From the NCBI RefSeq assembly GCF_016907675.1, contig NZ_JAFBCJ010000001.1, positions 4,960,001-5,024,000 on the forward strand: DNA of 64,000 nt, in the 5' to 3' direction. Below the pieces are notes generated by a model. That model saw only the letters and a list, made by a program, of their open reading frames with translations, was not told where the DNA came from and searched no databases. This DNA comes from Geodermatophilus bullaregiensis. Lineage in GTDB: Bacteria; Actinomycetota; Actinomycetes; Mycobacteriales; Geodermatophilaceae. The stretch's first letter is position 1. Each line of letters starts with the position of its first letter. Of the stretch, positions 37,008-54,218 are shown piece after piece. The position numbers were made by a program, and so were the translations under genes.

Positions 37008-37673
37008 CTAGTCGACGTCGTCGCCCGTGGGCAGCTCGGCGAGCGAGATCTCGCCGTCGCGGACGTGGAAGCGGGTCAGCGATCCGCGGCCGACCGGGAT
37101 CCGCCAGTCCTCGCCCTCCACACCGGTCAGCCGGGCGACCGCCAGCCGGATCATGACCGCGTGGGTGACCGCGACGACCGCCTCCCCGGGGTGGCGGCTG
37201 CCGATCAGCTGCAGCGCCTGCACCATGCGGGTCTGGGCGTCGCTGAGCCGCTCGCCCATCGGGCAGGCGGCGCGACTCGGCGAGGTGCGGTAGAGCTCGA
37301 AGGCCTCCGGGTCGTACACCGCGGCCTCGGTCGAGGTCATCGCCTCCCAGGCGCCGTAGTCGACGTTGTTCAGCCCGTGCACGATGCGCAGGTCGGGCAC
37401 CCTGGCCTCGTCGGCGATGATCTGCGCGGTCGCGATGGTGCGCCGCAGCGGTCCGCAGTAGACCGCCGTGAGCCCGACCCCGGAGAGCAGACGGGCGGCG
37501 TCCACGGCGTCCTGGTAGCCCTGCGCGTCGAGCGGCACGTCGCAGCGACCGCGGTACCTGTTCTCGACGTTCATGGTGGTGGTGCCGTGCCGGACGACGA
37601 ACAGCCGGCAGGTCTGGGACGACACGGTCTCCGTCCGGTGCAGGACCGGCGCGGTGACGGGCAACGTGTCCAC
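37008..37673 (-). CDS. Histidine-phosphatase (phosphoglycerate-mutase-like) family protein
   Basis: 221 aa. The catalytic RHGTTTMNVENRYRGR motif holds His29; the partner His is in VAVTHAVMIRLAVARL. YCGPLRRTIATAQIIADEAR and VHGLNNVDYGAWEAMT are standard for the family. GAGGAG precedes GTG 37673. It could dephosphorylate sugar phosphates, cofactors or nucleotides. It is divergent from the antiporter operon. Confidence 0.9.
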   Translation of the reverse strand: MDTLPVTAPVLHRTETVSSQTCRLFVVRHGTTTMNVENRYRGRCDVPLDAQGYQDAVDAARLLSGVGLTAVYCGPLRRTIATAQIIADEARVPDLRIVHGLNNVDYGAWEAMTSTEAAVYDPEAFELYRTSPSRAACPMGERLSDAQTRMVQALQLIGSRHPGEAVVAVTHAVMIRLAVARLTGVEGEDWRIPVGRGSLTRFHVRDGEISLAELPTGDDVD

Positions 37674-38082
37674 GGCTCTCCTCGGGTGGTGCGAGCGGGA
37701 CCGGCAGCCCGGCCGGGACGGAGCCGTGGCCGGGGGCGGCTGGTCCGGCGACCGTAGGACCCCGCGGGCGCCGTCGGGCGGTGTCCGGCCGGTCGTCCCC
37801 GCGCCTTTCCCGGTATCGTCGGAATGGCGGGACAACGCGCGTCGACGTCCTTTCCGTGAGTGATCGGTCCGGTGGTCGGCGTCATTTCGGACAATGGTCG
37901 TCTCCACCAGGAGGACGAGGACGTCTCGTGCAGACGCCGGTTGTCCCGTGCGGCTTCCCCGACCATTTCGGCGCCTTTCCGGGAACAATGGCGCACCCCC
38001 TGCCCGGAATCCTCCGACGTCGCTATGTTGACCGCCGCCCGCACCGTCGGGAGCGCGCCACGTCACAGCCAGTGGGGGTCCC
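37674..38082. other. 409-base intergenic region with lower GC
   Basis: No gene recognised. The region is noticeably less GC-rich than its surroundings and holds direct repeats CATTTCGG (near 37883 and 37963) and ACAATGG (near 37893 and 37985). It must contain divergent promoters for the phosphatase and antiporter genes. Confidence 0.6.
38006..38029 (+). promoter_or_regulatory. Candidate ECF-type promoter for the antiporter/ATP-sulfurylase operon
   Basis: GGAAT (38006-38010) and GTT (38027-38029) are 16 bases apart, resembling the GGAAY-N16-18-GTT promoters of SigE/SigR-type factors. TATGTT (38024-38029) could alternatively be a sigma-70 -10 element. The start would be about 45 bases before the ATG. 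Confidence 0.4.
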
Positions 38083-39426
38083 ATGTCGACCGAGAGCCTG
38101 GGACGGCTGGCGCTGGCACTGTTGTTGCTGGTCGTCGGTGCGAACCTCCTCGGGCAGGTCGCCGTGCGGCTCCGGCAGCCGAGGGTGGTCGGCGAGATCC
38201 TCGCCGGCGTGCTGCTCGGGCCGTCCGTGCTCGGCCTGCTGGCTCCCGACGTCGTCGCCCGGGTCTTCGGGAGCGGGGGCGCGGACCCGACCTCGGTGGT
38301 CCTGGAGTTCCTCTACCAGCTCGGACTGCTGCTGTTGATGTTCCTGTCCGGGACGGGCGTGCGGAACGTCCTCGGCCGCGAGAACCGCAGGCCGACCGCC
38401 TGGCTCCTGGGTGTGGGCACGGCGCTGCCGTTCTGTGCGGCGCTGGGGATCGCCCCGTTCCTCCCGCTGGGCGCGTTCCTGGGCCCGGCGCGCAGCGAGG
38501 CCGCGGTCGTGCTCGTGCTCGCCATCGCGGCAGCGGTCACCTCGATCCCGGTGATCAGCAAGATCTTCGCCGATCTGGGCATCCTGCACACGCGCTTCGC
38601 GAGCCTGATGCTCGGCGTCGCCGTGCTCGAGGACATCGTGCTGTGGGGGTTCCTGGCGCTCGCCACGGCCATCGCGTCGGCGACCGTCGCCGCGGGAGGT
38701 GGCGCGGTGGCGGGGACGGTCGCCGTCCACGTGACCGTGAACACGGCGTTCGTCGTCCTCGGCATGACCGTGCTCCCGGGAGCCCTCCGCCGGCTGGGCC
38801 GGGCCCGGTGGAACGTCGTGGCCAGCCAGTCACCGGTCGCGTGGGTGGTGGCCGTCCTCCTCGGCTACGTGAGCATCGCCGCCGCGCTCGACGTCACGCT
38901 GGCGTTCGCGGCGTTCCTGGCCGGCTTCGGCCTCGTCGGGGGCGTCGACACCGGCCGGGACCACCCCCTCCGGGTGCCGATCGAGGCGATCGGGCACGTG
39001 TCGGGCGCGGTGTTCATCCCGCTCTACTTCGCCGTGGTGGGCTACCGCCTGGACCTCACCCGGGGTTTCTCGCTCGCGATGCTCGTCGGGTTCCTCGTCG
39101 GCTCGACGCTGGTGGTCCTCGTCTCGATCGGGCTCGCCGCGTGGCTGGCGGGCTTCCGCGGGCTCGACGTCGTCAATCTGGCGCTGACCCACAACGCGCG
39201 CGGCGGTCCGGGGATCGTGCTGGCCAGCGTGGCGTTCGACGCGGGGATCATCAGCGCCCCCTTCTTCACGACGCTGGTGCTGACGGCCGTGCTGACGTCC
39301 CAGGCCTGCGGCTTCTGGCTCGACCTCGTGATCCGCCGGGGCTGGCCGCTGCTGGCGGCCGAGGGGCCCGTGCAACGGCGCCCGGTGGCGCTCGGGTCGG
39401 CAGCCGTCCCGGCGGGCCCGAAGTGA
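38083..39426 (+). CDS. CPA2-family cation:proton antiporter
   Basis: 447 aa, about 12 helices. RQPRVVGEILAGVLLGPSVL, VAVLEDIVLW and FLAGFGLVGGV are typical of the KefB/Na+:H+ exchanger (Pfam Na_H_Exchanger) domain; LALTHNARGGPGIVLASVAF is the usual penultimate helix. No TrkA-N or other regulatory tail. It likely exchanges Na+ or K+ for protons. Its TGA overlaps the GTG of the ATP sulfurylase gene, so both are made together, an unusual pairing. Confidence 0.9.
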   Translation: MSTESLGRLALALLLLVVGANLLGQVAVRLRQPRVVGEILAGVLLGPSVLGLLAPDVVARVFGSGGADPTSVVLEFLYQLGLLLLMFLSGTGVRNVLGRENRRPTAWLLGVGTALPFCAALGIAPFLPLGAFLGPARSEAAVVLVLAIAAAVTSIPVISKIFADLGILHTRFASLMLGVAVLEDIVLWGFLALATAIASATVAAGGGAVAGTVAVHVTVNTAFVVLGMTVLPGALRRLGRARWNVVASQSPVAWVVAVLLGYVSIAAALDVTLAFAAFLAGFGLVGGVDTGRDHPLRVPIEAIGHVSGAVFIPLYFAVVGYRLDLTRGFSLAMLVGFLVGSTLVVLVSIGLAAWLAGFRGLDVVNLALTHNARGGPGIVLASVAFDAGIISAPFFTTLVLTAVLTSQACGFWLDLVIRRGWPLLAAEGPVQRRPVALGSAAVPAGPK

Positions 39427-41138
39427 TCGCGCGCGCCGGCTGGACGGCGGGGACGGAGGCGACGGTGACCGACGTCCCCGGACCTCCGGCGCACGGCGGC
39501 ACCCTGGTGGACCTCCGGGTCACCGGCGGCCGCGCCGCGGAGGTCGCCACCGCCGCGCGGTTCCTGCCCGGGTGGGAGCTCACCCGTCGCCAGCGCTGCG
39601 ACCTGGAGCTGCTGGCCACCGGGGGGTTCTCGCCGCTGCGCACCTTCATGGGGCCGGCCGACCACGCCGCGGTCTGCGCCTCCATGCGGCTGACCTCCGG
39701 CGAGCTGTGGCCGGTCCCCGTGACGCTCGACCTGCCCGAGCACGTCGTCGAGGCAGCCACCGCCGCCGGCGGGCTGACGCTGCGGGCCCGCGGGGCCGAC
39801 CTCGCCGTCCTGTGGCTGCAGACGGCCTGGCGACCCGACCGGCCGGCCGAGGCGGCGGCCGTCCTCGGCACCACCGACCCGTCGCACCCCGGCGTCCGCG
39901 CCCTGCTGTCGGAGACGAACCCCTGGTGTGTCAGCGGCCCGCTGGAGGTCCTGGCGCTGCCGGTCCACGCGGCGTTCCGCTCGCTGCGCCACACGCCGGC
40001 CGAGGTGCGGCGGGAGATCGCCGACCGCGGGTGGGACAGGGTGGTGGCCTTCCAGACCCGCAACCCGATGCACCGGGCCCACCAGCAGCTCACGGTCCGG
40101 GCGGCCCGCGACCTCGACGCCGACCTGCTCCTGCACCCGGTCGTGGGGGTGACCAAGCCGGGGGACGTCGACCCGTACGTGCGGGTCCGCTGCTACCGCG
40201 CCCTCCTGCCGACCTATCCGCCGGGGACCGCCATGCTGTCCCTGCTCCCGCTGGCGATGCGGATGGCCGGGCCCCGCGAGGCCCTCTGGCACGCGATCGT
40301 GCGGAAGAACCACGGCGCCACCCACTTCATCGTCGGGCGGGACCACGCCGGCCCCGGCCCGGACGCGCAGGGCCGGCCGTTCTACGACCCCTACGCCGCC
40401 CAGGACCTGGTGCGCCGTCACGAGCGGGAGCTCGGGATCGGCGTGGTCCCGTTCCGGCAGATGGTCTACGTCCGGGAGCTGCAGGAGTACGTCCCCGAGG
40501 ACGAGGTCCGCCCGGGCCAGCACTGCCTGCGGATCTCCGGCACCGAGCAGCGGCGGCGGCTGGCGCGCGGGGAGGAGCTCCCCGCCTGGTTCACCCCGCC
40601 GGAGGTCGCGGCCGAGTTGCGACGGGCGTTCCCGCCCAGGTCGGCGCGCGGGCTGGGCGTCCTGGTCGGCCCCGGCCTGGAGCACGGGGACCGGATCGCC
40701 GCCGCCGTGGCCGCGCAGCTGCGCGAGGCGGGCCGCACGGTCACCGTGCTCGACAGCCTCGTCTGGACCGGAGGCGGAGCGACGGCCCGGCTCGTGGCGC
40801 GACTCGTCGGGGAGATCATGCTCAACGGCGGCGCGGTGGTGTGCTCGGGTGAGCTGGCGCGACAGCTCACCGGCCGCACCGCCGACGCCCCGGACGTGGC
40901 GCCGGCCCCCGGGTTCCTGCTCGACGTCCGTCCCGGGGAGACGGCCCCCGAGGCCGGCGACGAGGCCTTCCCGGACGGCGACCGGGACTCGCTGACCGTC
41001 CCACCGGAGGCGTCGGCCGAGCTGGTCGCCGAGCTGGTGTGCCGTCGGCTCGGCGCACTGGGGCACCCGGCCCAGCCGCCTGCGACGGACCGGGGTCCGC
41101 GCCCGGTCGACCGCGCCGCGCTCGTGGGCTCGGGGTGA
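39423..41138 (+). CDS. sat: ATP sulfurylase with degenerate C-terminal APS-kinase-like domain
   Basis: 571 aa. ATP sulfurylase makes adenylyl sulfate from ATP and sulfate. PUA-like N-terminal domain to about 160, then catalytic domain to about 390: QTRNPMHRAH with Gln211, His217 and His220, and GRDHAG at 305-310. Residues about 409-571 align with APS kinase, but the P-loop GLSGSGKST is replaced by GPGLEHGDR (416-424), so phosphorylation of APS is improbable; it may be allosteric, as in fungal sulfurylases. Expected use: PAPS supply for the sulfotransferase next door. Confidence 0.88.
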   Translation: MIARAGWTAGTEATVTDVPGPPAHGGTLVDLRVTGGRAAEVATAARFLPGWELTRRQRCDLELLATGGFSPLRTFMGPADHAAVCASMRLTSGELWPVPVTLDLPEHVVEAATAAGGLTLRARGADLAVLWLQTAWRPDRPAEAAAVLGTTDPSHPGVRALLSETNPWCVSGPLEVLALPVHAAFRSLRHTPAEVRREIADRGWDRVVAFQTRNPMHRAHQQLTVRAARDLDADLLLHPVVGVTKPGDVDPYVRVRCYRALLPTYPPGTAMLSLLPLAMRMAGPREALWHAIVRKNHGATHFIVGRDHAGPGPDAQGRPFYDPYAAQDLVRRHERELGIGVVPFRQMVYVRELQEYVPEDEVRPGQHCLRISGTEQRRRLARGEELPAWFTPPEVAAELRRAFPPRSARGLGVLVGPGLEHGDRIAAAVAAQLREAGRTVTVLDSLVWTGGGATARLVARLVGEIMLNGGAVVCSGELARQLTGRTADAPDVAPAPGFLLDVRPGETAPEAGDEAFPDGDRDSLTVPPEASAELVAELVCRRLGALGHPAQPPATDRGPRPVDRAALVGSG

Positions 41139-41155
41139 CCTCCGTGCGCCCGGTC

Positions 41156-41177
41156 GCCCGCTGGGCCCGCCGCGGGC
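41156..41177. terminator. Hairpin between ATP sulfurylase and sulfotransferase
   Basis: GCCCGC (41156-41161) pairs with GCGGGC (41172-41177) over ten bases, in the 53-base gap between convergent stops. Confidence 0.45.
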
Positions 41178-41191
41178 ACCGGCGGAGCGGC

Positions 41192-42085
41192 TCAGGCGAT
41201 GCCCCACCCGTCGAAGTCCGCGCCGAGGTGGCCGCGGAGCCGGCGGACGTCGTCGGCCAGCTCGACGGCGATCCTGGCCCGGACGTCGTCGGGGACGGTC
41301 ACGGCCGGCCTGGCCGGCGCGTCGGTCCGGCCGGTCACCCGCCGCAGCGCGCCGAGCGTGTTGGTCTCGAGCTCCTTGAACCGCCGCGTCGACGGGAAGC
41401 GGTGCTTCAGGAACTTCCGCAGTGCCAGCGGCACGGGGGAGCGGGCGGCGCGGTCACTGGTGCGGTAGAAGTCGCGGTCCAGCTCGGCCGGTGCGTGGTC
41501 GGGGTCGACGCCGATGAAGTCGTAGACCCGTCTCATCGTCGCCTCGCGGGAGCGCCGGAGGGACTCGGACGTGATCACCAGCAGCTGCTCGCGGGGGAAG
41601 TGCTCGAGGTACTGGTCGATCTGCAGGGCGTAGCGGCTGTAGTCCAGGTAGATGGGATCGGCGAACACCGCCTCGGCGAGCGGCGCCCGCTCGCTGCCCT
41701 CCGCGGCCCGGGTCTCGTAGTGCGAGCGGATCCGGGCGACCGGGTCCCGGACGACGTACAGCAACCGGACGTCGGGCAGGTGCGCGGCGATCCTCGCCGG
41801 GACGCCCCGGTAGCGGGGGTGCTTCGCGTAGGAGTTGGACGCCTCGCCGACGGCCAGGACCTCCGGACCGGTGACCGGGAACTGCCTGCGGTACCAGTCG
41901 ATGCCGCGGTGCCAGTTCGACTCCTCGACGAAGAACTCCGGTGCCTTGTACTGCGGGACGGCGACCTGGGGGTGGGCCCCGAGGTAGTGGTAGAGGCTGG
42001 TCGTCCCGGCCTTCATCGCACCGATGAGCAGGAAGGTCGGCAGCCGGCGGCCGTGGTCGGTGCCGTCCCCGTCGTCGTCGGTCAC
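41192..42085 (-). CDS. PAPS-dependent sulfotransferase
   Basis: 297 aa. The 5'-phosphosulfate loop is KAGTTSL (25-31) and the 3'-phosphate motif is VVRDPVARIRSHYETRA (112-128, with Arg113 and Ser121). The family moves sulfate from PAPS to hydroxyls of sugars or small molecules. WYRRQFPVTGPEVLAVGEAS is typical of heparan-sulfate-sulfotransferase-like bacterial proteins. No signal peptide, so it acts on cytosolic precursors. Its neighbours suggest sulfation of an exopolysaccharide unit. Confidence 0.92.
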   Translation of the reverse strand: MTDDDGDGTDHGRRLPTFLLIGAMKAGTTSLYHYLGAHPQVAVPQYKAPEFFVEESNWHRGIDWYRRQFPVTGPEVLAVGEASNSYAKHPRYRGVPARIAAHLPDVRLLYVVRDPVARIRSHYETRAAEGSERAPLAEAVFADPIYLDYSRYALQIDQYLEHFPREQLLVITSESLRRSREATMRRVYDFIGVDPDHAPAELDRDFYRTSDRAARSPVPLALRKFLKHRFPSTRRFKELETNTLGALRRVTGRTDAPARPAVTVPDDVRARIAVELADDVRRLRGHLGADFDGWGIA

Positions 42086-42282
42086 CGCTGCGGCCTCCTC
42101 GGTCCGGCCCTGGACAGTGCCGCAGATGATGGCCGAGCGGCCGGGCGGGTGGAAGGGACCCGCTCCCGCGGTCGTCCGGCGACCCGGGACCGGGCGCCCC
42201 GGCCGCGGTGCCGTGCCGTTCCGGCGTCACCCGGGACGGCTGCCGTCCCGGACCGCCGGCTGATCCGAAGGGGAGCGACAGC

Positions 42283-43602
42283 ATGAGGATCTCGGTCGTC
42301 GGGTGCGGTTACCTGGGTGCGGTGCACGCGGCCTCGATGGTGGAGCTGGGTCATGAGGTGGTCGGGATCGACGTCGACGAGCGGCGGGTCGCGGCGCTGC
42401 GGGCGGGGCGGGCGCCGTTCTACGAGCCGGGGTTCGAGGAGTTGCTCGGTCGGACCCTGGCCTCGGGGCGGTTGAGGTTCAGCGCCGACGTCGCCGAGGC
42501 GGCCGGCGCCCGGGTGCACTTCGTGTGCGTGGGCACGCCGCAGCGGCACGGGGAGTACGCCGCGGACCTGCGGTTCGTGCAGGCGGCGGTGGAGTCGTTG
42601 CTGGGTGTGCTGGAGCCCGGGCAGCTGGTGGTGGGCAAGTCCACCGTGCCGGTGGGAACGGCGGCGCGGCTGGCGGGGCTGGTGGCCGAGAAGGTGCCCG
42701 GGGCGCTGCTGGCGTGGAATCCGGAGTTCCTGCGCGAGGGGTTCGCGGTGGCCGACACGCTGCACCCCGACCGGCTGGTCTACGGCCTGCCCGGTGGTGT
42801 CGACGGCGCGCCGGCCGAGCGGCTGCTCGATGCGGTGTACGCCCCGATCCTGGCCCGCGGCACGCCGAAGGTGCGCACCGACCACGCGACCGCGGAGATG
42901 GTGAAGACCGCGGCCAACTCCTTCCTGGCCACCAAGATCTCCTTCATCAACGCGATGGCGGAGTTGTGCGAGGCCACCGGCGCCGACGTCGCCCAGCTGG
43001 CCGACGCGATCGGCTACGACGAGCGGATCGGGCGGCGGTTCCTCAACGCCGGGCTGGGGTTCGGCGGAGGGTGTCTGCCCAAGGACATCCGGGCGTTCAT
43101 GGCCCGGGCCGGGGAGCTGGGCGCCGATCAGGCGCTGACGTTCCTGCGCGAGGTGGACAACATCAACATGCGCCGGCGGATCCGGATGGTGGAGCTGGCC
43201 CGGGAGGTGCTCGACGGGTCGCTGCTGGGCAAGCACGTGGCGGTGCTGGGCGCGGCGTTCAAACCCGACAGCGACGACATCCGGGACTCCCCGGCGCTCA
43301 ACGTCGCCGCCCAGCTGCAGCTGCAGGGCGCGGTGGTGTGCGTGACCGATCCCGCCGCGATCGACAACTCCCGCCGCCAGTGGCCGCAGCTGGACTACGC
43401 CGCCACCGCGGAGGAGGCCGCGGCCGGCGCCGACGCGGTGCTGGTGCTCACCGAGTGGCGGGCCTACCGCGAGCTCGACCCGGTCGCCTTCGGGCGGGTG
43501 GTGGCGCAGCGGCGGGTGCTCGACGGGCGCAACGCCCTGGACCGGGAGGCGTGGACCGCGGCGGGCTGGACCTACCGCGCCCTCGGCCGCCGCGCCGGCT
43601 GA
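42283..43602 (+). CDS. ugd: UDP-glucose 6-dehydrogenase
   Basis: 439 aa. Oxidises UDP-glucose to UDP-glucuronate with two NAD+. N-terminal Rossmann motif VVGCGYLGAVHAASM; STVPVGT; WNPEFLREGFAVADTLHPDR; Lys208 and Asn212 in EMVKTAANSF; catalytic Cys264 in GFGGGCLPKD; C-terminal FKPDSDDIRDSPAL. GGGGAG precedes the ATG. The coding style has more TTG and GGT/GGG than its neighbours, which may hint at a different history. It would supply acidic sugar for the exopolysaccharide. Confidence 0.96.
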   Translation: MRISVVGCGYLGAVHAASMVELGHEVVGIDVDERRVAALRAGRAPFYEPGFEELLGRTLASGRLRFSADVAEAAGARVHFVCVGTPQRHGEYAADLRFVQAAVESLLGVLEPGQLVVGKSTVPVGTAARLAGLVAEKVPGALLAWNPEFLREGFAVADTLHPDRLVYGLPGGVDGAPAERLLDAVYAPILARGTPKVRTDHATAEMVKTAANSFLATKISFINAMAELCEATGADVAQLADAIGYDERIGRRFLNAGLGFGGGCLPKDIRAFMARAGELGADQALTFLREVDNINMRRRIRMVELAREVLDGSLLGKHVAVLGAAFKPDSDDIRDSPALNVAAQLQLQGAVVCVTDPAAIDNSRRQWPQLDYAATAEEAAAGADAVLVLTEWRAYRELDPVAFGRVVAQRRVLDGRNALDREAWTAAGWTYRALGRRAG

Positions 43603-43762
43603 GGCCGTCGGCGCCGTCCGGGGGCCGTTCCCCGCACCATGAGTGGCTGCATATGCGCAGGTAGTGAGGGTGAACGCCGGGCGAACGGAATGTTGACGGC
43701 AAGGTGGGGAGACCCCTGTCCCGCAATCTTCAACTGCTCTACGGTCCGGTCACGCCCCGTCC

Positions 43763-43838: not shown

Positions 43839-44552
43839 GTGGGTGAGGCTTGCGCGAGAGGGCTCGGCGACCTGGAGGACTGGGTCGGCCGTGAGATCGA
43901 GGACCGGCTGAGGGTCCTGATGCACGAGATCCGCCAGCCGGTCGCGGTGGTGCTGGCCCTGGCGGAGGCCGCACGGGGGCTGCCGGGCACACCGGACGAG
44001 ACACACGAGTACCTCGACCGGATCGTCGACCAGGTGCAGGAGGTGTCGGCCGCGGCGTTCAGCGTGCTCGTCGAGCAGGCCGACGACCACCTGGACGGGG
44101 CGGCGCCGCTGGACCTTGAGGAGGTCCTGGAGTCGGTCCTGGACGCCTACACGGTCACCTGGGCCGGGACGCTGACCCGGTCGGGCCCCCGGGGGCCGTT
44201 GTGGACGGCGGGCTGCCGGGCGACCGTCCGGCGTTGCGTGGTGAACGTGCTCGACAACGCCGTGCGGGCCGCGGGACCGACCGGGCGGGTGGTGGTCACG
44301 ACCGTGCCGGGCGAGGACGCGATCCGGGTGGTCGTCGAGGACGACGGGCCGGGGTTCGGGCTGGGGCCGCCCGGCACCGGCATCGGGCTGCCCGCCACCC
44401 GTCGAGCGCTGCGCCTGCACGGAGGCCGCCTCGCGACCGGCCGGTCGCGGACCCTGAGCGGGGCACGGGTGACCCTGTCCCTGCCGACCGTCCCCGTCCG
44501 TGGGCAGCCACCGCGGGTCGACCTCCACCGGATGACCGGCCGGGCCTCGTAG
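43839..44552 (+). CDS. Minimal soluble histidine kinase
   Basis: 237 aa with no membrane helix and no sensor domain. DHp helix with His29 in LMHEIRQPVAVVLALAEA; ATPase domain with N box VVNVLDNAVRAA (Asn136, Asn140), G1 DDGPGFG (168-174) and G2 GTGIGLPATRRAL (179-191). It must take its signal from a partner or respond to a cytosolic cue. It is seven bases upstream of a response regulator. Confidence 0.9.
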   Translation: MGEACARGLGDLEDWVGREIEDRLRVLMHEIRQPVAVVLALAEAARGLPGTPDETHEYLDRIVDQVQEVSAAAFSVLVEQADDHLDGAAPLDLEEVLESVLDAYTVTWAGTLTRSGPRGPLWTAGCRATVRRCVVNVLDNAVRAAGPTGRVVVTTVPGEDAIRVVVEDDGPGFGLGPPGTGIGLPATRRALRLHGGRLATGRSRTLSGARVTLSLPTVPVRGQPPRVDLHRMTGRAS

Positions 44553-44559
44553 CACCGCG

Positions 44560-45300
44560 ATGCGCCTGGTCATCTGCGACGACCACCGGCTCTTCGTCGA
44601 GCCGCTCGCCGCCGCCCTCGCCCGCAACGGCCACGACGTGGTCGTCGCCACCACTCCGCTGCGCGCCCTCGAGGCGGTCGCCGAACACCAGCCCGACCTG
44701 GTGGTCCTCGACCTCCGCTACCCGGACGGCGACGGCATCGAGACCCTGGTCGAGCTCCGCGACCGGCGACCGGCGTGCCCCGTCGTCATCCTGTCGGGGT
44801 CCGTGGACTCCACCGACCTCACCGCTGCCGCCGCGGCCGGTGCGGCGGCGTTCCTCCGCAAGGACCAACCCGTGGCGGCGATCATCGACGCCCTCGACCG
44901 GGTGGCCAGCGGACGGGCCGTGTCCACGCCACCGATGGCCCGCAGGCGCGGCGCGACGGACGCCCACGAGCGGGTGCGGTGGCTGGTCGACCACCTCACC
45001 GACCGGGAGCGGGAGGTGCTCCAGGCGCTGATCCGGGCCGAGGACACCGTCGAGATCGCCCGATCGCTGGGGGTCGAGGCGAGCACCGCGCGCACCCACG
45101 TGCAGAACGTGCTGTTCAAGCTCGGGGTGCACACCCGTCTGCAGGCCGTGGCCCTCGCCGTCTCCTCGGGGCTCGACGCGGACCTGCCGACCCCGTCTAC
45201 TGCAAAGGGCGTAGGCGACCGTGCGACATCTGCAGGTCGACCGCCTCGTCTGGTCGCCGGAGCATCGGGACGTGCACGAGATCCGCGTGGTCCTCGGTGA
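44560..45300 (+). CDS. NarL/LuxR-family response regulator
   Basis: 246 aa. Receiver domain with acidic pair Asp7-Asp8 (VICDDHRLF), phospho-acceptor Asp51 (VVLDLRYPDGDG), Ser79 and Lys101. LuxR helix-turn-helix about 148-205 (LTDREREVLQALIRAEDTVE, STARTHVQNVLFKLGVHTR). The C-terminal 35 residues are disordered and overlap the next gene. Expected to be phosphorylated by the kinase just upstream. Confidence 0.93.
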   Translation: MRLVICDDHRLFVEPLAAALARNGHDVVVATTPLRALEAVAEHQPDLVVLDLRYPDGDGIETLVELRDRRPACPVVILSGSVDSTDLTAAAAAGAAAFLRKDQPVAAIIDALDRVASGRAVSTPPMARRRGATDAHERVRWLVDHLTDREREVLQALIRAEDTVEIARSLGVEASTARTHVQNVLFKLGVHTRLQAVALAVSSGLDADLPTPSTAKGVGDRATSAGRPPRLVAGASGRARDPRGPR

Positions 45301-45919
45301 CGAGCAGCGGTCCTTCGTCGAGGCACTGGCGATGCGGCTCGAGCAGGAGCCCTTCATCCGGGTCGTCGCGGCGGTCACGCGGCCCGAGGAGGTGCTGCGC
45401 GTCGTCCGTGCGCAGCCGGTGGACCTCGCCGTCCTGACCGTCGACAGGCACGGCGGCCTCCTCGACCTCGGCCCACGGCTGAGCGCGGCCCGCCCCGAGC
45501 TGAAGCTCGTCGGGGTCGCCGGGACCGACGACACCGCCACGATGGCCCGTGCGGTGCAGGCCGGCTTCCGCGCCTGGATCCCTAAGGACGTCGGCATCTG
45601 CGTCCTGCTCGACGTGCTGCAGGCCGTCTGCCGCGGCGAGACGTGGATCCCACCCGGGCTGCTGACCCTGCTGCTGGAGCACCTGCTCACCGAGCAGGAG
45701 CAGAAGCGCCGTGCCGAGGAGCCGCTGGCGGCCCTCACGGCCCGCGAGCAGCAGGTCCTGCGCGCGATGTCCAGCGGAGCCACGCGCGACGAGATCGCCC
45801 GCCAGCTGTGCATCTCCGGCAACACCGTCCGCACGCACACCCAGAGCATCCTCACCAAGCTGGGCGTGCACACGTCGCTGGCGGCCGTCACGCTCGCCCG
45901 CCGCGCCGGGGTCGGCTGA
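45272..45919 (+). CDS. Atypical NarL/LuxR-family regulator with a pseudo-receiver
   Basis: 215 aa from GTG 45272, which has GGAG nine bases upstream; GTG 45221 is an alternative. The receiver keeps one acid (Asp10-Glu11 in VVLGDEQRSF) and Lys105 (WIPKDVG), but the phospho-acceptor position in DLAVLTVDRHGG is Thr56 rather than Asp, so normal phosphorylation is unlikely (Asp58 is two residues away). Intact LuxR DNA-binding domain: LTAREQQVLRAMSSGATRDE, GNTVRTHTQSILTKLGVHT. Overlaps the preceding regulator gene by 29 bases. Probably controls the downstream polysaccharide genes. Confidence 0.85.
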   Translation: MHEIRVVLGDEQRSFVEALAMRLEQEPFIRVVAAVTRPEEVLRVVRAQPVDLAVLTVDRHGGLLDLGPRLSAARPELKLVGVAGTDDTATMARAVQAGFRAWIPKDVGICVLLDVLQAVCRGETWIPPGLLTLLLEHLLTEQEQKRRAEEPLAALTAREQQVLRAMSSGATRDEIARQLCISGNTVRTHTQSILTKLGVHTSLAAVTLARRAGVG

Positions 45920-45978: not shown

Positions 45979-46129
45979 CGCGCCCGCGTGCGGACCCGTC
46001 CGGACGGGCAGGGCCGGCCCTCCGGTGCCCTGCGTAGTCCCTCTCGTCTCCGTGACGGATCCGGACGGGTGGTCGTCGCACCTAGCGTCGCCGCCGTCGA
46101 CGAGTGCGACGGAAGAGGGGGATCCGACG

Positions 46130-47104
46130 ATGAGGTGCGTCGTCACGGGGGCAGCGGGGTTCGTGGGCTCCCATCTGTGCGAACTCCTGCTCGCGCGGGG
46201 GGACGAGGTGACCGGCATCGACTGCCTCACCGACTACTACGACCCGCGCCTCAAGGAGGCCCACCTGTCCGGTGCGCTCGCCCACGAGCGGTTCCGGCTG
46301 CACCGGGTCGATCTGCTGGAGGCGCCCCTGGAGCAGGTGCTCGACGGCGCCGAGGTGGTCTACCACCTCGCCGGGCAGCCGGGTGTGCGGCCGTCCTGGG
46401 GAGCGGAGTTCGCCACCTACGTGTCCCGCAACGTCCTGGCCACCCAGGCGGTCCTCGAGGCGGCGCGGAGGGTCGGTCCGGCCAAGCTCGTCTACGCCTC
46501 CAGCTCCAGCGTGTACGGCGACGCGGAGTCCTACCCGACCGCCGAGACGGTGCGGCCGCGGCCGGTCTCGCCCTACGGCGTGACGAAGCTCGCCGCCGAG
46601 CACCTGTGCGAGCTCTACCGCAGCGGGTTCGGGGTGCCGACGGTGTCCCTGCGGCTGTTCACCGTCTACGGACCGCGTCAGCGGCCGGACATGGCCTTCT
46701 CACGACTCGTCTCCGCCGCCGTGCGCGGCGGCGAGTTCGAGCTCTACGGCACCGGCACCCAGACCAGGGACTTCACGTTCGTCGGGGACGTCGTCCGGGC
46801 GATGGCCGATGCCGCCGCATCGGAGTTCACCGGGGTGGCCAACGTCGGCGGGGGCAGCCGGACGTCCATGACGGAGGTCCTCGACCTCGTCACGGAACTG
46901 GCCGGAGCTCCCGTGGTCCGCCGGCTGCCGACCCAGCGGGGCGACGTCCGGGACACCGCGGCCGACACCCGGGTGGCGTTCCAGGGCTTCGGCTACGTCC
47001 CGTCCACGGGACTGCGCGAGGGGCTCGCGCTCATGGTCGAGGCCGAGCGCTCGACGGTCCCGGCTGCCGCCGGCCTGCTGGCCGCGGCGGGTGCGCGGTC
47101 GTGA
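46130..47104 (+). CDS. NAD-dependent sugar-nucleotide epimerase/dehydratase
   Basis: 324 aa extended SDR. TGAAGFVG (6-13) binds NAD, catalytic Tyr149-x3-Lys153 in SPYGVTK, plus SSSSVYGDAE and RLFTVYGPRQRPDMA. The layout resembles UDP-glucuronate 4-epimerase and GalE-like enzymes, which fits a substrate made by the nearby UDP-glucose dehydrogenase, but exact specificity cannot be read. GTGA overlap with the next gene. Confidence 0.9.
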   Translation: MRCVVTGAAGFVGSHLCELLLARGDEVTGIDCLTDYYDPRLKEAHLSGALAHERFRLHRVDLLEAPLEQVLDGAEVVYHLAGQPGVRPSWGAEFATYVSRNVLATQAVLEAARRVGPAKLVYASSSSVYGDAESYPTAETVRPRPVSPYGVTKLAAEHLCELYRSGFGVPTVSLRLFTVYGPRQRPDMAFSRLVSAAVRGGEFELYGTGTQTRDFTFVGDVVRAMADAAASEFTGVANVGGGSRTSMTEVLDLVTELAGAPVVRRLPTQRGDVRDTAADTRVAFQGFGYVPSTGLREGLALMVEAERSTVPAAAGLLAAAGARS

Positions 47105-48576
47105 CCACCGCCCGGCTGCGGCCGCACCTGCTGCGTCCGCGGACCGCCCAGACGCCGACGCTGGGCGAGGCGGTGCCCCCCTGCCCGCCCCGTCCGGCGC
47201 CGGCCCCCGGCCCGGCGGTGGCGCAGCCCGCGGGCCCGCCACGGCCGCACCGGTCCGGTCCGTGGCTGCCCAGGGCCGTGCTGCTCGCCGTCGACGTGGC
47301 CACCTTCGGGGTGGCGATGGTCGTGACGGGGACGACCAGCGTCAAGACGCTCACCGTCCTGGTGCTGGCCGTCCTGCTCTTCTCCACCGCGGACCTCTAC
47401 CGCCCCGGCCTGTCGCTGTCGGTGCTCGACGACGCTCCCGCGCTGGTCGTGCGGTCGCTCGCGGCGGGGGCCGGCGCGATGGTGCTCGGCGGGCTCGGGG
47501 ACGGCCTGGCGGGCACGGCCCGACTGGCGACGGCGGCCCTCTTCGCCGGTCTGTGCGTCGGCGGGCGCGCCGTCGCCTACGCGGGCATCCGGCACGCGCG
47601 CCGCCACCGCCGGTTGCAGCAGCGGGTGCTGCTGCTCGGGGCCGGCGCGGTCGCGGGGACCCTGGGGCGCAACCTGCTCGACCACCCCGAGTACGGGCTG
47701 ACGCCCGTGGGCCTGCTCGACGACGAGCCGCTGCTGTGCCTGGAGGAGCGGCCGGTGCCGGTGCTCGGCGGCTACGCCGACCTGAGCCGGGTGCTGGTCG
47801 AGCACTCCATCGACGTCGTCATCGTGTCCTACGGCCGGGTCCGCGAGCCCCTGATGGTGGACATGCTGCGCGCCTGCGACCACCTGGCGTGCGACATCTA
47901 CTTCGTCCCGCGGCTGTACGAGCTGCACGTGGTGACCAAGGACACCGAGGTCCTCTGGGGCGTGCCGCTGGTGCGCCTGCGCCGGGCCCCGTTCCGCAGC
48001 CCGACCTGGGCGCTCAAGCGGGTGACCGACGTGGTGCTCGCGGCCGTCGCGATGGTGCTGCTCCTGCCGGTGCTGCTGCTGTGCGCGCTGCTCGCGCGCT
48101 GGGAGACGGGGACGGTGCTGTTCCGGCAGACCCGGATCGGGCTCGACGGCCGGCCGTTCACCCTGCTGAAGATCTGCTCGATGCGGCCGGTCGGGGAGAC
48201 GGAGTCCGGGACCCGCTGGACCATCGCCGACGACGAGCGGCTGGGCCCGGTCGGCCGGTTCCTGCGCCGGACCTCCCTCGACGAGATCCCGCAGCTGTGG
48301 AACGTCCTGCGGGGGGACATGAGCCTGGTGGGACCCCGGCCGGAGCGCCCGTTCTTCGTCGGCGAGTTCACCCGCCAGTTCCCCTGGTACATGGCCCGGC
48401 ACCGGGTGCCCGCGGGGCTGACCGGCTGGGCGCAGATCCACGGGCTGCGCGGCAACACGTCGATCGCGGACCGGGCGCGCTTCGACAACTTCTACATCGA
48501 GAACTGGTCGATCTGGGGCGACGTCAAGATCATGATCCGCACCCTCGGCCAGGTGCTGTCGGCGGGTGGCCGGTGA
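47101..48576 (+). CDS. Initiating sugar transferase (polyprenyl-phosphate glycosylphosphotransferase)
   Basis: 491 aa. Pro-rich N terminus, four or five helices (about 60-165), a CoA-binding-like Rossmann segment (VLLLGAGAVAGTLGRNLLDH), then a membrane helix at about 310-330 and the bacterial sugar transferase domain: GTVLFRQTRIGLDGRPFTLL, RRTSLDEIPQLWNVLRGDMS and VGPRPERP. It transfers the first sugar phosphate to undecaprenyl phosphate, as WbaP/CpsE-type enzymes do. Confidence 0.95.
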   Translation: MTTARLRPHLLRPRTAQTPTLGEAVPPCPPRPAPAPGPAVAQPAGPPRPHRSGPWLPRAVLLAVDVATFGVAMVVTGTTSVKTLTVLVLAVLLFSTADLYRPGLSLSVLDDAPALVVRSLAAGAGAMVLGGLGDGLAGTARLATAALFAGLCVGGRAVAYAGIRHARRHRRLQQRVLLLGAGAVAGTLGRNLLDHPEYGLTPVGLLDDEPLLCLEERPVPVLGGYADLSRVLVEHSIDVVIVSYGRVREPLMVDMLRACDHLACDIYFVPRLYELHVVTKDTEVLWGVPLVRLRRAPFRSPTWALKRVTDVVLAAVAMVLLLPVLLLCALLARWETGTVLFRQTRIGLDGRPFTLLKICSMRPVGETESGTRWTIADDERLGPVGRFLRRTSLDEIPQLWNVLRGDMSLVGPRPERPFFVGEFTRQFPWYMARHRVPAGLTGWAQIHGLRGNTSIADRARFDNFYIENWSIWGDVKIMIRTLGQVLSAGGR

Positions 48577-48607
48577 AGGCCGGACGCCGGCGGGCGGTGT
48601 GCAGCAC

Positions 48608-48629
48608 CCGGGTCGCAGACGCGACCCGG
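48608..48629 (+). terminator. Strong intra-operon hairpin, possible attenuator
   Basis: CCGGGTCGC (48608-48616) pairs perfectly with GCGACCCGG (48621-48629) over an AGAC loop. It lies between the sugar transferase and wzz-like genes, 24 bases before the GTG of the latter. It could reduce downstream transcription or protect an mRNA end. Confidence 0.6.
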
Positions 48630-48652
48630 CACGGAGGGACGGGACGACGGAC

Positions 48653-49927
48653 GTGGACCTGAACCTGGTCGCACAGCGGATCCTCCGGCGGCACTGGGCG
48701 GTGATCCTGCTGCTCGTGCTGCTCGGGGTCTCCGTACCGGTGGCGCTGCACCGGATGCAGGAGCCGAGCTACGAGGCGAGCGCCCGCTTCACCATCGGTT
48801 CCTGGGACACCCGGGACGCGCAGGAGTCGAGCGGGCTGGCCGACACGGCCCTGGCGCTGGCCACCAGCCCCGAGGCGGTGGGCCGGGCCCTCGGGCAGGC
48901 CGGCATCGCCCGCGACCCGGTCGCCGTCATCGAGGTGGTGCAGGTCGCCCCGGTGGGGACCTCCGGCGTGCTCGAGCTGACCGCGACCGACCCCGACCCG
49001 ACCGCGGCCGCGACGATCACCAACGCCCTCGCCGCCGAGGTCGTCCGCGCCCGGGACGAGGCGATCCTCGGGGACACCCGGGCGGCGATCGCCGGGATCG
49101 ACGGGCAGATCGCGGCGCTGTCGCAGGAGATCACCCGGATCGAGGACACGGCGGACGCGACCGTGGCGAGGTTGCGCAGCGTCGAGGCCCTCGCCCTGCG
49201 GCACGCGGAGGCGGTCGAGCAGCGGACCCGCCTGGAGAACCAGCGCCAGCAGCTGGTCACGATCCTGTCGACGACCGAGGCGCCGCGGATCATCGACGGC
49301 TCGGCGACCAGCGGGCTGCCCGTGCCCACGGCCCTGGTCACCCGGCTGGCGATCGGCGGGCTGCTGGGGTTGGTCCTCGGTGTCGCACTCGCCGCGACGC
49401 TCGAGTCGTGGCGCCCGACGCTCACCGGTCCGGGGATCGCGCACCACCTCGGCGCGCCCCTGCTCGACCGGCTGCCGCGGCCTCCCAAGCACGACACCGA
49501 GCTGCAGGACCCCTGGCTGACCAACTACCTGACCCTCGCCGCCGACGCCGCGGGCGTCCGGTCGGTGAAGCTGGTGCCGGTCGGTCCCGAGGTGGACGTC
49601 TCGGGCCTGGCCGGCCAGCTCGACGGCCACGACGACGGCGGACTGCGCGTCACGTCGTTCTACCTCGAGGGCGATGCCTCCCGGGACGCCGCGCGCTCGT
49701 CCCGTCCGGGCACGGGCATCGTCGCGGTCGTGCCCGACGTGGTGAAGGGGACGTCGGTGTTCGAGCGCCTCGAACGGCACGTGGAGCTGGCCCGTCAGCC
49801 CGTCATCGGCGTCCTGACCTACCGGGGCCGGTGGCGGCGGGGGATCACCCGGTCCGCCCCGCGTCACCTGGCCCTGACCGCGGACGAGGCCGCCGCCGAC
49901 CGGGTGCCCGCCGACCCGGCGCCCTGA
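48653..49927 (+). CDS. Wzz-type polysaccharide chain-length determinant
   Basis: 424 aa. N-terminal helix about 15-32, periplasm-like domain with coiled coil (about 130-205) and second helix about 224-245, the Wzz layout. The C-terminal region (about 260-400: VKLVPVGPEVDVSGLAGQL, GIVAVVPDVVKGTSVFERLE, QPVIGVLTYRGR) echoes the tyrosine kinase (CpsD-like) fold of actinobacterial Wzz proteins but has no Walker A, so it is likely catalytically dead. Governs chain length together with the Wzy-like protein, nine bases downstream. Confidence 0.88.
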   Translation: MDLNLVAQRILRRHWAVILLLVLLGVSVPVALHRMQEPSYEASARFTIGSWDTRDAQESSGLADTALALATSPEAVGRALGQAGIARDPVAVIEVVQVAPVGTSGVLELTATDPDPTAAATITNALAAEVVRARDEAILGDTRAAIAGIDGQIAALSQEITRIEDTADATVARLRSVEALALRHAEAVEQRTRLENQRQQLVTILSTTEAPRIIDGSATSGLPVPTALVTRLAIGGLLGLVLGVALAATLESWRPTLTGPGIAHHLGAPLLDRLPRPPKHDTELQDPWLTNYLTLAADAAGVRSVKLVPVGPEVDVSGLAGQLDGHDDGGLRVTSFYLEGDASRDAARSSRPGTGIVAVVPDVVKGTSVFERLERHVELARQPVIGVLTYRGRWRRGITRSAPRHLALTADEAAADRVPADPAP

Positions 49928-49936
49928 TCCGCGGCC

Positions 49937-51274
49937 ATGTCGAGCGACCGGGGGACCGCACCCGCTCCACGACCGGCCGAGGCCTGGCGGGGGCTGTCGG
50001 AGGCCTACCCCTGGGAGACGGGACCGCACGAGCCGGGGCGGGCGGTCCTCGCGGTGGTCGCGCTGTGCATCGGGCTCACCCCGCTGGTGAGCCCGAAGGG
50101 GCCGGGCAACGGCGCCCCGATCGACCTGTTCGTCGCCATCGGGGTCGCCACCGCGATGCTGTGGGCGATCCGGCGCCGGGCCAGGTTGAACTTCCCCTAC
50201 TTCGTGCCCATGACCGCCTACGTGGTCGCCGGCCTCGTCGCGGCCATGCTGTCGGCCGTCCCGTTCCGCGGCGGGATCGCGGCAGGTCAGGAGATCTTCC
50301 TGTTCCTCTGGTGCGCGGCGCTGGCCACCATCTGCCGGACGCCCCGGGCACTGGCCGTCGCGATCCGCGCCTGGGCCGTCAGCGCGACCCTCTGGGCGGG
50401 GGTGATGGTGGCCGGGGTGGTGGGCGGGATCCCCGCGCTGTCCGGGGCCAGCGAGTGGGGGCGGCGGGCGCAGCTGTTCTTCGACCACCCCAACATGGCC
50501 GGTAACTACTTCATGATCGCGATCTTCGTCGTCGTGGCGTCCGGCTTCCCGCGCCGGCGCTGGGTGCGGGCCGGCGCCTGCCTCCTGCTGCTCACCGCCA
50601 TGTTCTTCACCGGCTCGAACGCGGCGCTGCTGTCCCTCGTCGGCGGGACGCTCGTGATGGTGTTCCTCAACCTGCGGCTGCGCAGGGGGCTGATGCCGGC
50701 GATAGCGACGCTCACCTCGCTGGTCCTCGTGCTCGGTGTCGGCTGGACCACCGTCGTGCCGCCGCTGGTCGCTGCCGCCGAGCAGAGCGACGACCCCCTG
50801 CTGCGGTACACCGTCGGGCGCAGCCCGGAGAGCGCGGACAAGCGGGAGGAGCTCTTCATCCAGCAGTACGAGCTCTTCGAGGGCGGCCGCCTGCTCGGGA
50901 TCGGTCCGGCCGCGACCAAGCACGAGCTCGGCACCGGGTTCTCCCGCCTGGACAAGGAGGCCCACAACGACTACCTCGCGACGCTGGTCGAGCGTGGCCC
51001 CCTGGGCCTGCTCGCCGTGCTCGCACTGATCGCTGCCGTCGGTGCACGGCTCATGGAGGTGACGCGGCACCGGCTCCTGCCGCAGCTGGCCGCCGCGGTC
51101 CCCGTCCCCGCGGCGCTGGCCGGGGCGTGCGCGGCGTTCGCGCTCACCGCGGTGACCCACGAGGTGCTGCACTACCGCTGGTTCTGGGCGCTGCTGGGGT
51201 TCGTGGCCGCCACCCACCTGCTCGCCCGGTCGGCGGACCAGGCGGGTGCCCGGTCCCGGTGGCCGGCCCGATGA
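49937..51274 (+). CDS. O-antigen ligase/polymerase (Wzy-like)
   Basis: 445 aa with about ten to twelve helices. The large loop contains FFDHPNMAGNYFMI, FTGSNAALLSLVGG and a later KEAHNDYLATLVERGPLGLL, which is the Wzy_C/RfaL signature with the conserved H-N-x-Y. It polymerises or ligates lipid-linked repeat units outside the membrane. Confidence 0.92.
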   Translation: MSSDRGTAPAPRPAEAWRGLSEAYPWETGPHEPGRAVLAVVALCIGLTPLVSPKGPGNGAPIDLFVAIGVATAMLWAIRRRARLNFPYFVPMTAYVVAGLVAAMLSAVPFRGGIAAGQEIFLFLWCAALATICRTPRALAVAIRAWAVSATLWAGVMVAGVVGGIPALSGASEWGRRAQLFFDHPNMAGNYFMIAIFVVVASGFPRRRWVRAGACLLLLTAMFFTGSNAALLSLVGGTLVMVFLNLRLRRGLMPAIATLTSLVLVLGVGWTTVVPPLVAAAEQSDDPLLRYTVGRSPESADKREELFIQQYELFEGGRLLGIGPAATKHELGTGFSRLDKEAHNDYLATLVERGPLGLLAVLALIAAVGARLMEVTRHRLLPQLAAAVPVPAALAGACAAFALTAVTHEVLHYRWFWALLGFVAATHLLARSADQAGARSRWPAR

Positions 51275-51317: not shown

Positions 51318-52796
51318 GTGACCAGCCAGGTGCGGACGGCCGGGGAGCGGGTGGACCGTCCCCCGCGGCGTCGGAGGGTCGCGGCCAACTCGACGGCCCA
51401 GCTGCTCACCTTCGCCGCGCGTGCCGTCGCCTCGGTCGGGGTCGTCGTGCTGCTGGCCCGTTCGGGGGGACCCGTCGCCCTGGGCGTCGTGCAGTTCGCG
51501 CTCACCCTCAGCGGCCTGCTGCCCTTCTACTACGGCATCCCCACGCTGCTGGCCCGGGAGGTCGCCCGCCGGCCGGAGGACGGACGGCAGTGGGTGGAGA
51601 CCGGACTGCTGCTGGCCGTGGTCCTCGGGGTGGTGTTCACCGCGCTGCTCCCGGGCGCGGCGCTGGCGGCCGGCGCATCCCCGGAGACGGCCCTGTCCCT
51701 GGCCGTCGCGTCGGCCGGGATGGCGTTCGACGGCGTTGCGCGGGTGCTGTTCGCCGCGTTCTGGGCATGGGAGCGGCTGGACCTCGAGACCGGGGTCACC
51801 GCTGCGCAGGAGACCGTGTACCTCGTCGGCACCGCGGTCGCCCTGTGGCAGGGCGGGGGGCCGCTCGCCGCGCTCGCGGCCTTCGCCGGGTCACGGGCGC
51901 TGGGGGCCGGGTGCGCGTGGCTGCTCGCCGGGCGCCACCTGGGCGGGGTGCCGCTCCCGCGGTCCGGCGGGCGGACCCTGTGGTCGACCGTCCGGCGGTG
52001 CACGCCCTTCGCCGTCAGCGACACCTGGATGCTGACCTACGCGCGCGTCGACGCGGTGCTCCTCGGTGTCTGGAAGGGCCCGGCAGCGGTGGGCCTCTAC
52101 CAGGCCGCCACCAACCTCGTCCTCTACTTCACCGTGGTCCCGCGCAGCATCAACCGGGCGCTGTTCCCCCGCATGGGGCGGGCCTGGCCGGCCCACCCGG
52201 AGGAGTTCAGCCGGCTGCGGGACGTCTCCCTGCGGCTGGTCGCACTCGTCGGTGTGCCCGTGACCGTCGCGTCGCTGCTGCTGGCGCCGCGCACCATCGC
52301 CTTCCTGTACGGCCCCGACTTCGCCCCGGTCGTCCTCACCTACCAGCTGCTCGTCCTGGTCATCCCGCTGCGGATGCTGGGCCACACGCTGAGCCTCTCG
52401 CTCGCGGCGGTCGACCGGCAGAACGGGCGCACGCTCGCCGTGACCGTGGTGGCCGTGCTCAACGTCGGGATGAACTGCTGGGCCATCCCGCGCTGGTCCC
52501 ACCTCGGCGCCGCGGTCACCTCGGTGGTCTGCGAGGTGCTGCTGCTGGGGGCCTTCGCCGTCCTGCTCCGCCGGGCCACCGGCCCCTCGGAGATACTGCG
52601 CTCGAACGGCTGGCCCCTGCTGGCCAGCGTGCCGATGGCCGCGGTGCTGGTGTGGACGTCGGGACAGCCGCTCCTGGTGTCCGCCGCCGCCGGCGCCGCG
52701 GTCTACGCGGGCGCCGTCCTGGTCCTCGCCGTGCTCCGGGCGCGTGACCGCCGACCGGCCCGCGCGCTGGCCGGGCTGGTCACGCCGGCCCGCTGA
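51318..52796 (+). CDS. Wzx-type polysaccharide flippase (MATE/MVF superfamily)
   Basis: 492 aa, about 14 helices. N-terminal RRVAANSTAQLLTFAARAVA and LGVVQFALTLSGLLPFYYGI are typical of the polysaccharide-biosynthesis flippase family; FLYGPDFAPVVLTYQLLVLV is the usual second-half marker. It moves lipid-linked units across the membrane. GTG 51318 was chosen; earlier in-frame codons are Pro/Gly filler. Ends 17 bases inside the convergent glycosyltransferase gene. Confidence 0.9.
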   Translation: MTSQVRTAGERVDRPPRRRRVAANSTAQLLTFAARAVASVGVVVLLARSGGPVALGVVQFALTLSGLLPFYYGIPTLLAREVARRPEDGRQWVETGLLLAVVLGVVFTALLPGAALAAGASPETALSLAVASAGMAFDGVARVLFAAFWAWERLDLETGVTAAQETVYLVGTAVALWQGGGPLAALAAFAGSRALGAGCAWLLAGRHLGGVPLPRSGGRTLWSTVRRCTPFAVSDTWMLTYARVDAVLLGVWKGPAAVGLYQAATNLVLYFTVVPRSINRALFPRMGRAWPAHPEEFSRLRDVSLRLVALVGVPVTVASLLLAPRTIAFLYGPDFAPVVLTYQLLVLVIPLRMLGHTLSLSLAAVDRQNGRTLAVTVVAVLNVGMNCWAIPRWSHLGAAVTSVVCEVLLLGAFAVLLRRATGPSEILRSNGWPLLASVPMAAVLVWTSGQPLLVSAAAGAAVYAGAVLVLAVLRARDRRPARALAGLVTPAR

Positions 52797-53994: not shown

Positions 53995-54218
53995 GCGCCC
54001 CTCCTGCTGCTGGCCCGGCCGGCATCGGTGGTCCGCCGGCACCGTCGGAGTGTGCGGTACCGCGGCACCCGTGCGACGACCATTCCGCACGGCCACGGGA
54101 ATGGCGTCGGACGTCTCCGTCGTGTGCACGGGACGACCTCGTGCAGGTGAGGTGCCGTCGCCATTCCCGACGAGTTCGCCGGCGGACAGCGTGACGCCTC
54201 CCGTGCACGTTCCGTCAA

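Follow-up and report, generated by a model that had tools for sequence, protein, structure and literature searches.

Dead domains related to adenosine 5'-phosphosulfate (APS) kinase are known on the ATP sulfurylases of fungi and yeast (PMC3779200; PMC3734648), and the kinase-like domain of the Penicillium enzyme is reported to bind 3'-phosphoadenosine 5'-phosphosulfate (PAPS; PMC3734648). The sulfated capsule (CPS) cluster of Cobetia marina is described as carrying cysNC, cysD, cysQ and a sulfate permease (PMC11766843). In Actinoplanes missouriensis, the sulfurylase/APS-kinase family gene AMIS_7390 lies beside wps-1, a predicted sulfated exopolysaccharide cluster, and its deletion is reported to cause a severe sporangium defect; according to the same 2026 paper, sulfated polysaccharides in actinomycetes await experimental proof, and a word search of its main text finds no phosphatase or permease mentioned for the AMIS_7390 locus (PMC13390465). 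The ascamycin cluster is reported to hold, near a subunit of sulfate adenylyltransferase, a phosphatase of 220 aa and a sodium/hydrogen antiporter (PMC4257720). Here we describe an ATP sulfurylase (Sat) with an apparently decayed APS-kinase-like tail, encoded in a stretch of 64,000 nucleotides from Geodermatophilus bullaregiensis (the window), which belongs to a genome of 5.2 Mb in one contig.

We favor, as reasonably probable, the hypothesis that this Sat is derived from a bacterial sulfurylase-APS-kinase fusion whose kinase half has decayed, and that it belongs to a co-inherited cassette feeding the sulfation of a neighbouring Wzx/Wzy-type exopolysaccharide. The open reading frame (ORF) has a GTG start, encodes 571 aa and lies exactly where an earlier note on this DNA, made from the letters alone, had placed it. 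It is the only Sat in the genome (PF01747, one place), and its parts are as follows.

39423..41138, plus strand: ATP sulfurylase (Sat) with a putatively dead APS-kinase-like tail (Pfam, NCBIfam, predicted model)
39489..39953, plus strand: PUA_2 domain, residues 23-177 (PF14306, E 4.5e-39, 134 bits)
39981..40625, plus strand: ATP-sulfurylase catalytic domain, residues 187-401 (PF01747, E 3.5e-84, 281.9 bits)
40638..41081, plus strand: degenerate APS-kinase-like domain, residues 406-553, without P-loop, DGD, APS-binding loop, lid and PYE segment (alignment, hidden Markov model, structural model and fold match)

By domain content Sat is a complete ATP sulfurylase: it passes TIGR00339 (422.4 bits against a cut-off of 322.95), and the PUA_2 and ATP-sulfurylase domains also lie above their cut-offs. 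What we take to be the sulfurylase active-site motifs, QxRNPxHxxH and GRDHAG, are kept as QTRNPMHRAH from residue 211 and GRDHAG from residue 305, in columns that are mostly invariant among 50 aligned proteins. The enzyme is probably active as an ATP sulfurylase, to judge from these motifs. Its best sequence match in PDB is the Penicillium ATP sulfurylase (429.7 bits). The match to NF004040, the bifunctional sulfurylase/APS kinase, reaches 512.1 bits, below the cut-off of 669, and is confined to residues 25-445.

The earlier note had proposed a fusion in the order sulfurylase-kinase with a lost P-loop; Pfam domains and predicted fold agree with the first point, and an alignment of the tail (about 165 residues) with 13 intact fused kinase domains and the CysC of the window genome bears out the second. 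The sequence GPGLEHGDR occupies the place of the P-loop and is not one. All other kinase motifs are gone too, since the tail has none of the DGD-R, FSxEHRxxNxRR, KGLY lid and FTGI-DPYE segments of intact APS kinases in this alignment; the roles of these motifs, as P-loop, APS/PAPS-binding segments and lid, are assumed here from general knowledge. What the tail retains is the first strand and helix, the 'TVLD' strand, the helix with 'NGG' and the C-terminal helix. No APS_kinase Pfam match was found in the Sat protein, even at E <= 1, and a kinase profile made from 92 intact domains gave the tail 4.6 bits (E 0.28), against 3.3 bits for the best of 200 shuffles and 250.7 for CysC. The tail is not recognisable as an APS kinase from its sequence alone, and is instead recognised by its position and predicted fold. 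The kinase half thus appears to be dead, a non-catalytic remnant with a residual APS-kinase-like fold, its inactivity being judged from the motifs.

Two genes and a short element that precede sat complete the cassette.

37008..37673, minus strand: histidine phosphatase (His_Phos_1, PF00300, E 2.3e-45), divergent to the antiporter, start GTG at 37673 guessed, RHG at residue 28
38022..38032, plus strand: GCTATGTTGAC, element conserved ahead of the antiporter at all four cassette loci
38083..39426, plus strand: CPA2-type cation:proton antiporter-like transporter (PF00999, E 2.3e-36; TIGR00932, 105.1 bits)

We call the transporter antiporter-like because it passes PF00999 and lies under the TIGR00932 cut-off of 238.3. 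For the histidine phosphatase, all NCBIfam matches, of which a cobC-like one is the best, are below cut-off. Within the family, Sat was found in 3 of 112 genomes (E 1e-20), the phosphatase in 3 of 108 (1e-30) and the antiporter in 3 of 108 (1e-60). These are the same three genomes, with four loci, and the three genes are adjacent at every one of them; the pairing of antiporter and sulfurylase is therefore no accident. Histidine phosphatase, CPA2-type transporter and sulfurylase form a co-inherited cassette. Ratios of nonsynonymous to synonymous substitution rates across the four loci (Sat 0.15-0.27, antiporter 0.19-0.29, phosphatase 0.16-0.27) point to purifying selection on all three genes. 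One genome, G240, carries two diverged copies of the cassette, on contigs C7 (locus L117) and C30 (L118), both complete with Sat, antiporter and phosphatase.

The antiporter's 3' end and the start of Sat share GTGA. The overlap is real, but it is not odd, as had been suggested: at this junction the two genes are 26 and 37 bp apart in two relatives, and a third has an overlap like that in the window, as in ordinary operon coupling. An ion balance during sulfate activation, which had been read from it, found no support; the more general suggestion of a specialised role fits, exopolysaccharide sulfation being the better-supported one. The upstream element GCTATNTTGAC occurs at 38022-38032 in the window, at 7933 in L117, on the reverse strand in L118 and at 8377 in L119. 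In the window it lies about 50 bp from the antiporter start and has a single occurrence; it is possibly a promoter or regulator site.

On the other side of sat, the window continues with a sulfotransferase and a polysaccharide cluster.

41192..42085, minus strand: sulfotransferase, convergent with sat (PF00685, E 5e-16; PF13469, E 4e-15)
42283..43602, plus strand: UDP-glucose/GDP-mannose dehydrogenase (PF03721, PF00984, PF03720)
43839..45919, plus strand: histidine kinase and two LuxR-type response regulators (PF02518/PF00512, PF00072/PF00196)
46118..47104, plus strand: NAD-dependent sugar epimerase/dehydratase (PF01370, E 6e-57)
47101..48576, plus strand: exopolysaccharide sugar transferase of the initiating type (PF02397, E 2e-61 on the longer ORF 45643-48576)
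48566..49927, plus strand: chain-length-determinant-like protein, by eye (no Pfam match; weak TIGR03017, 0.0011)
49937..51274, plus strand: Wzy-type polymerase/ligase (PF04932, E 7.6e-14)
51318..52796, plus strand: Wzx-type flippase (PF01943, E 1.8e-15)
52780..54129, minus strand: family 4 glycosyltransferase (PF00534, E 3e-27)

Sulfate activation, sulfotransferase and Wzx/Wzy-type genes thus lie together at 39423-54129, and a role in sulfation is suggested because the sulfotransferase adjoins Sat and the polysaccharide cluster lies beyond it. Polysaccharide genes are also near Sat at L118, L119 (by eye) and L123. A protein that resembles a sulfotransferase by eye, and has no match in Pfam, is repeatedly found next to the phosphatase or Sat (L119 6662-7402, L004 2-595, L214 8250-8750), and a GH5 glycosidase adjoins a kinase-less Sat in two different families (L119 11030-12211, L129 8337-10019). 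Beyond the polysaccharide cluster, the predicted proteins at 56880-58409 and 58429-59718 have no Pfam match at E 0.001; in the former, a P-loop-like GGDGAGKS is visible by eye.

The association extends outside the family. In a sample of 200 genomes from the order, four have the phosphatase at E < 1e-100 (the window genome, G159, G147 and G143) and four have Sat at the same threshold (the window genome, G159, G143 and G054). In G143, which belongs to another family, Sat, a phosphatase (74%), a TauE-like permease and a glycosyltransferase stand in line with ends that overlap or nearly do so. The TauE-like permease directly follows the phosphatase in G143, G159 and G147; in a scan of the G159 and G143 proteins, PF01925 was above cut-off in the former and below it in the latter. 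The set thus includes a transporter, whose type varies between loci. In G620, a single gene separates a kinase-less Sat from a CPA2-type gene (38% identical), and the DNA read there contains no match to the phosphatase.

Several observations weigh against the favored hypothesis. L117, one of the four family loci, has no exopolysaccharide genes in the 20 kb read, and a Pfam-type sulfotransferase is found beside Sat at only two of the four. In G054 the Sat-kinase fusion is intact and no match to the phosphatase was found; G147, conversely, has the phosphatase and no Sat match, its contig ending near the expected place of Sat. Weaker phosphatase matches (37-39%) exist in two family genomes that lack Sat, so that the strict co-occurrence of the two genes depends on the cut-off. 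Finally, none of 80 loci from genome contigs has a phosphatase of more than 28% identity, and the pairing is therefore local to this lineage.

The cassette could work as follows. Very tentatively, the transporter might help to supply sulfate or to balance its uptake. Sat, as known for its family, would make APS and pyrophosphate, and CysC would make PAPS in trans. The gene inventory agrees with such a division of labour: CysC is the single intact APS kinase of the window genome and is not encoded at the Sat locus, and an intact APS kinase is found elsewhere in all five other genomes searched that have a Sat lacking an active kinase (G240, G279, G143, G620 and G1001). The sulfotransferase would then sulfate the glycan or its precursor, and the histidine phosphatase may remove the by-product 3'-phosphoadenosine 5'-phosphate (PAP), by analogy with CysQ in the Cobetia cluster, which makes it a candidate PAP phosphatase.

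That the phosphatase instead serves the glycan pathway, acting on a sugar- or lipid-phosphate, or on another product of Sat, is an alternative to which we give considerable weight, somewhat short of an even chance. His_Phos proteins have many substrates, the NCBIfam matches of this one are all below cut-off, and the gene stands among polysaccharide genes in G159, G147 and G143; yet at the 1e-30 cut-off it tracks Sat rather than polysaccharide genes in general, and at L117 it accompanies Sat where the DNA read holds no polysaccharide genes.

Sat sequences from other bacteria place the tail in an evolutionary context. Among 152 loci with a Sat match, which include at least two pairs near-identical in sequence, 129 have a P-loop, 18 are short, two run off their contigs and three have a long tail without a P-loop; 27 named loci were left out as place duplicates or for having no Sat, as were any without a Sat match at E 1e-20. 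Of the short proteins, 14 belong to a separate, old clade of stand-alone Sat in the tree. The three long ones are L089, L123 (in G143) and L007, the window protein being a further case; L007 is a distant protein (32% identity), not of the window type, and is not counted as a degraded fusion. L089 (9956-11533, Chloroflexi bacterium SB0664_bin_6) has a degraded tail that is faintly recognisable by the kinase profile (26.9 bits), and a separate intact kinase in its genome. The tail of L123 (2472-3983) is degraded differently, is not recognised by that profile, and its gene adjoins the same phosphatase and TauE-like permease. Thirty Chloroflexota hits were turned into loci; one was L089 itself (L170, dropped as a duplicate), and a P-loop is present in each of the remaining 29. 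In G931 and G897, which share the phylum of the window, Sat is the same or almost the same in sequence as in named Actinomycetota records. Matches to Sat occur in 30 plasmid records, none above 60% identity, and the best 12 are annotated as bifunctional enzymes.

The closest sulfurylases, L113, L114 and L115, are 76-84% identical to the window Sat, end 32-39 aa past the ISGTEQR motif and have no tail. A tree of 146 Sat sequences places the window protein inside a group formed with these short proteins, as (((window, L113) 85, L115) 96, L114) 99, and the nearest sequences outside the group are those of G159 (intact kinase) and G143 (degraded), with support 91 and their order unresolved. This nesting makes repeated loss the simplest history; on the assumption that a tail is more easily lost than gained, there would have been about three losses around the window protein. 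Being repeatedly absent from close relatives, the tail would be dispensable, and the sequences suggest a bacterial sulfurylase lineage in which the fused kinase is intact, degraded or absent among relatives. A conserved pseudokinase family was considered and not found, as the degraded tails of the window, L089 and G143 differ from one another; the tails of the window and L089 match in BLASTP at E 3e-4, but against five sequences only. Behind the truncated Sat of L118, a possible out-of-frame remnant of a tail (first tblastn E 6e-4) scores 25.4 bits, which was equalled or beaten by 3 of 1000 shuffles; we regard it as suggestive only and do not use it as proof.

Codon usage is of help in judging how the tail came about. 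GC contents at codon positions 1/2/3 are 0.85/0.59/0.93 in the tail and 0.79/0.54/0.98 in the sulfurylase part. Because the tail keeps the coding signature of its frame, a recent frameshift or an assembly error is an unlikely origin, and the tail looks like translated protein rather than freely drifted DNA.

An AlphaFold model of Sat, made with a 50-sequence alignment, has a mean predicted local distance difference test score (pLDDT) of 88.5 and a predicted template modelling (pTM) score of 0.86; its tail alternates strands and helices, the pLDDT of its blocks ranging between about 90 and 46, and about 150 tail residues have an APS-kinase-like predicted fold. Foldseek and VIA-align both rank yeast and Penicillium ATP sulfurylases first: Foldseek finds yeast 1j70_A (E 6.4e-57, template modelling score 0.89 by target length), and VIA-align finds 1j70_C (Z 55.7, tied best; root-mean-square deviation, rmsd, 2.4 over 501 residues) and 1i2d_A (Z 55.4, rmsd 2.6, 514 residues). 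Compared with APS kinases, the tail region of the model gives 1m7g_B (Z 12.9, rmsd 2.8, 127 residues, 14% identity). The alignment included intact kinases, by which the tail fold was partly steered. Folded alone and with no alignment, the tail shows the same strand-helix order at low confidence (pLDDT 54.3). Its top four Foldseek matches, all to ATP sulfurylases or APS kinases, have E values of 0.03-0.1, and none reaches E <= 0.001; in VIA-align (Z <= 5.2) a helicase comes first, followed by APS kinases mixed with thymidylate kinases. An unrelated domain fused to Sat is less likely given the position and fold, although sequence alone does not decide.

These results bear on another explanation, that the tail is a structural domain of the yeast type, a ligand-free, trimmed kinase fold that keeps the oligomer assembled or stabilises the active site of the sulfurylase. 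We consider this possible, but would not expect it. The yeast enzyme is the best Foldseek match with a tied best Z, and the coding signature of the tail is kept despite extreme divergence; against this, the three close relatives manage without the domain, and the model owes part of its tail to the intact kinases in its alignment, the lone tail having found no confident match.

Ordinary assimilation, with Sat as a second, redundant APS route for cysteine and an incidental polysaccharide neighbourhood, is unlikely. The chemistry of Sat would be the same, and CysC is encoded beside a sulfite/nitrite-reductase-family protein and CysH in the window genome. However, 106 of 108 family genomes already have CysD, among them that of the window, where it lies away from the Sat locus, as opposed to Sat in only three; with CysD and with CysC beside the reductase and CysH, the reductive route can do without Sat. 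Polysaccharide genes, moreover, are near Sat in the window and at L118, L119 and L123. Very improbable is a fungal-type allosteric enzyme whose tail binds PAPS and inhibits the sulfurylase, the analogy drawn in the earlier note: the domain order is the same and the predicted fold resembles Penicillium 1i2d, but the losses go beyond the P-loop and extend to the APS/PAPS-binding segments, the lid and the PYE segment, the domain is absent from the three closest homologues and the nearby G143 tail is degraded differently. We therefore reject a PAPS sensor as the principal explanation.

Returning to the sulfation cassette, we also put forward a broader and decidedly tentative proposal, which we think more doubtful than probable. 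The phosphatase would be a PAP phosphatase unrelated to CysQ that forms, with Sat and a transporter (CPA2 in one family, TauE in others), a portable cassette for supply and clean-up in the making of sulfated exopolysaccharides by actinomycetes, and the kinase half would be unneeded and repeatedly decayed or deleted because CysC supplies that step. If true, this would offer genetics a concrete way into the sulfated polysaccharides of actinomycetes and predict a new type of PAP phosphatase, and a bacterial sulfurylase that loses its fused kinase in stages would be a counterpart of the dead kinase domains of yeast and fungi. An allosteric PAPS sensor would matter more, but the evidence speaks against it. 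In the open-access literature searched, we found no description of a sulfurylase-histidine phosphatase-exopolysaccharide cassette or of a bacterial dead kinase tail on a sulfurylase; the window would offer a bacterial case of such a tail, inside such a cassette and in a lineage with intact, degraded and absent states of the kinase.

Among known enzymes, the Saccharomyces cerevisiae ATP sulfurylase (1j70, 1g8f) is the best structural match and likewise has a shortened APS-kinase-like C-terminal domain; the model of the window Sat is predicted to share this trimmed fourth domain (1j70_C). Unlike the yeast enzyme, the window Sat is bacterial, its tail is trimmed differently and missing in close relatives, and its gene stands in a putative sulfation cassette. 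The Penicillium chrysogenum enzyme (1i2d, 1m8p) shares the domain order and a non-catalytic kinase-like domain, whereas the window tail has lost the corresponding segments, as judged against intact APS kinases and not residue by residue against the Penicillium PAPS site. Bacterial sulfurylase-APS kinases (NF004040; Aquifex 2gks) have the same architecture and ancestry, but the window protein falls below their cut-off and is without a kinase motif. AMIS_7390, by its description, resembles the window Sat in family and setting (PMC13390465), and the ascamycin cluster is a looser lead, likewise by description (PMC4257720). The Cobetia locus, as described (PMC11766843), is a single polysaccharide locus with the same functional set, namely PAPS synthesis, a PAP phosphatase, a sulfate permease and a sulfotransferase, but it uses CysNC/CysD and CysQ, where the set in the window has Sat and a histidine phosphatase instead.

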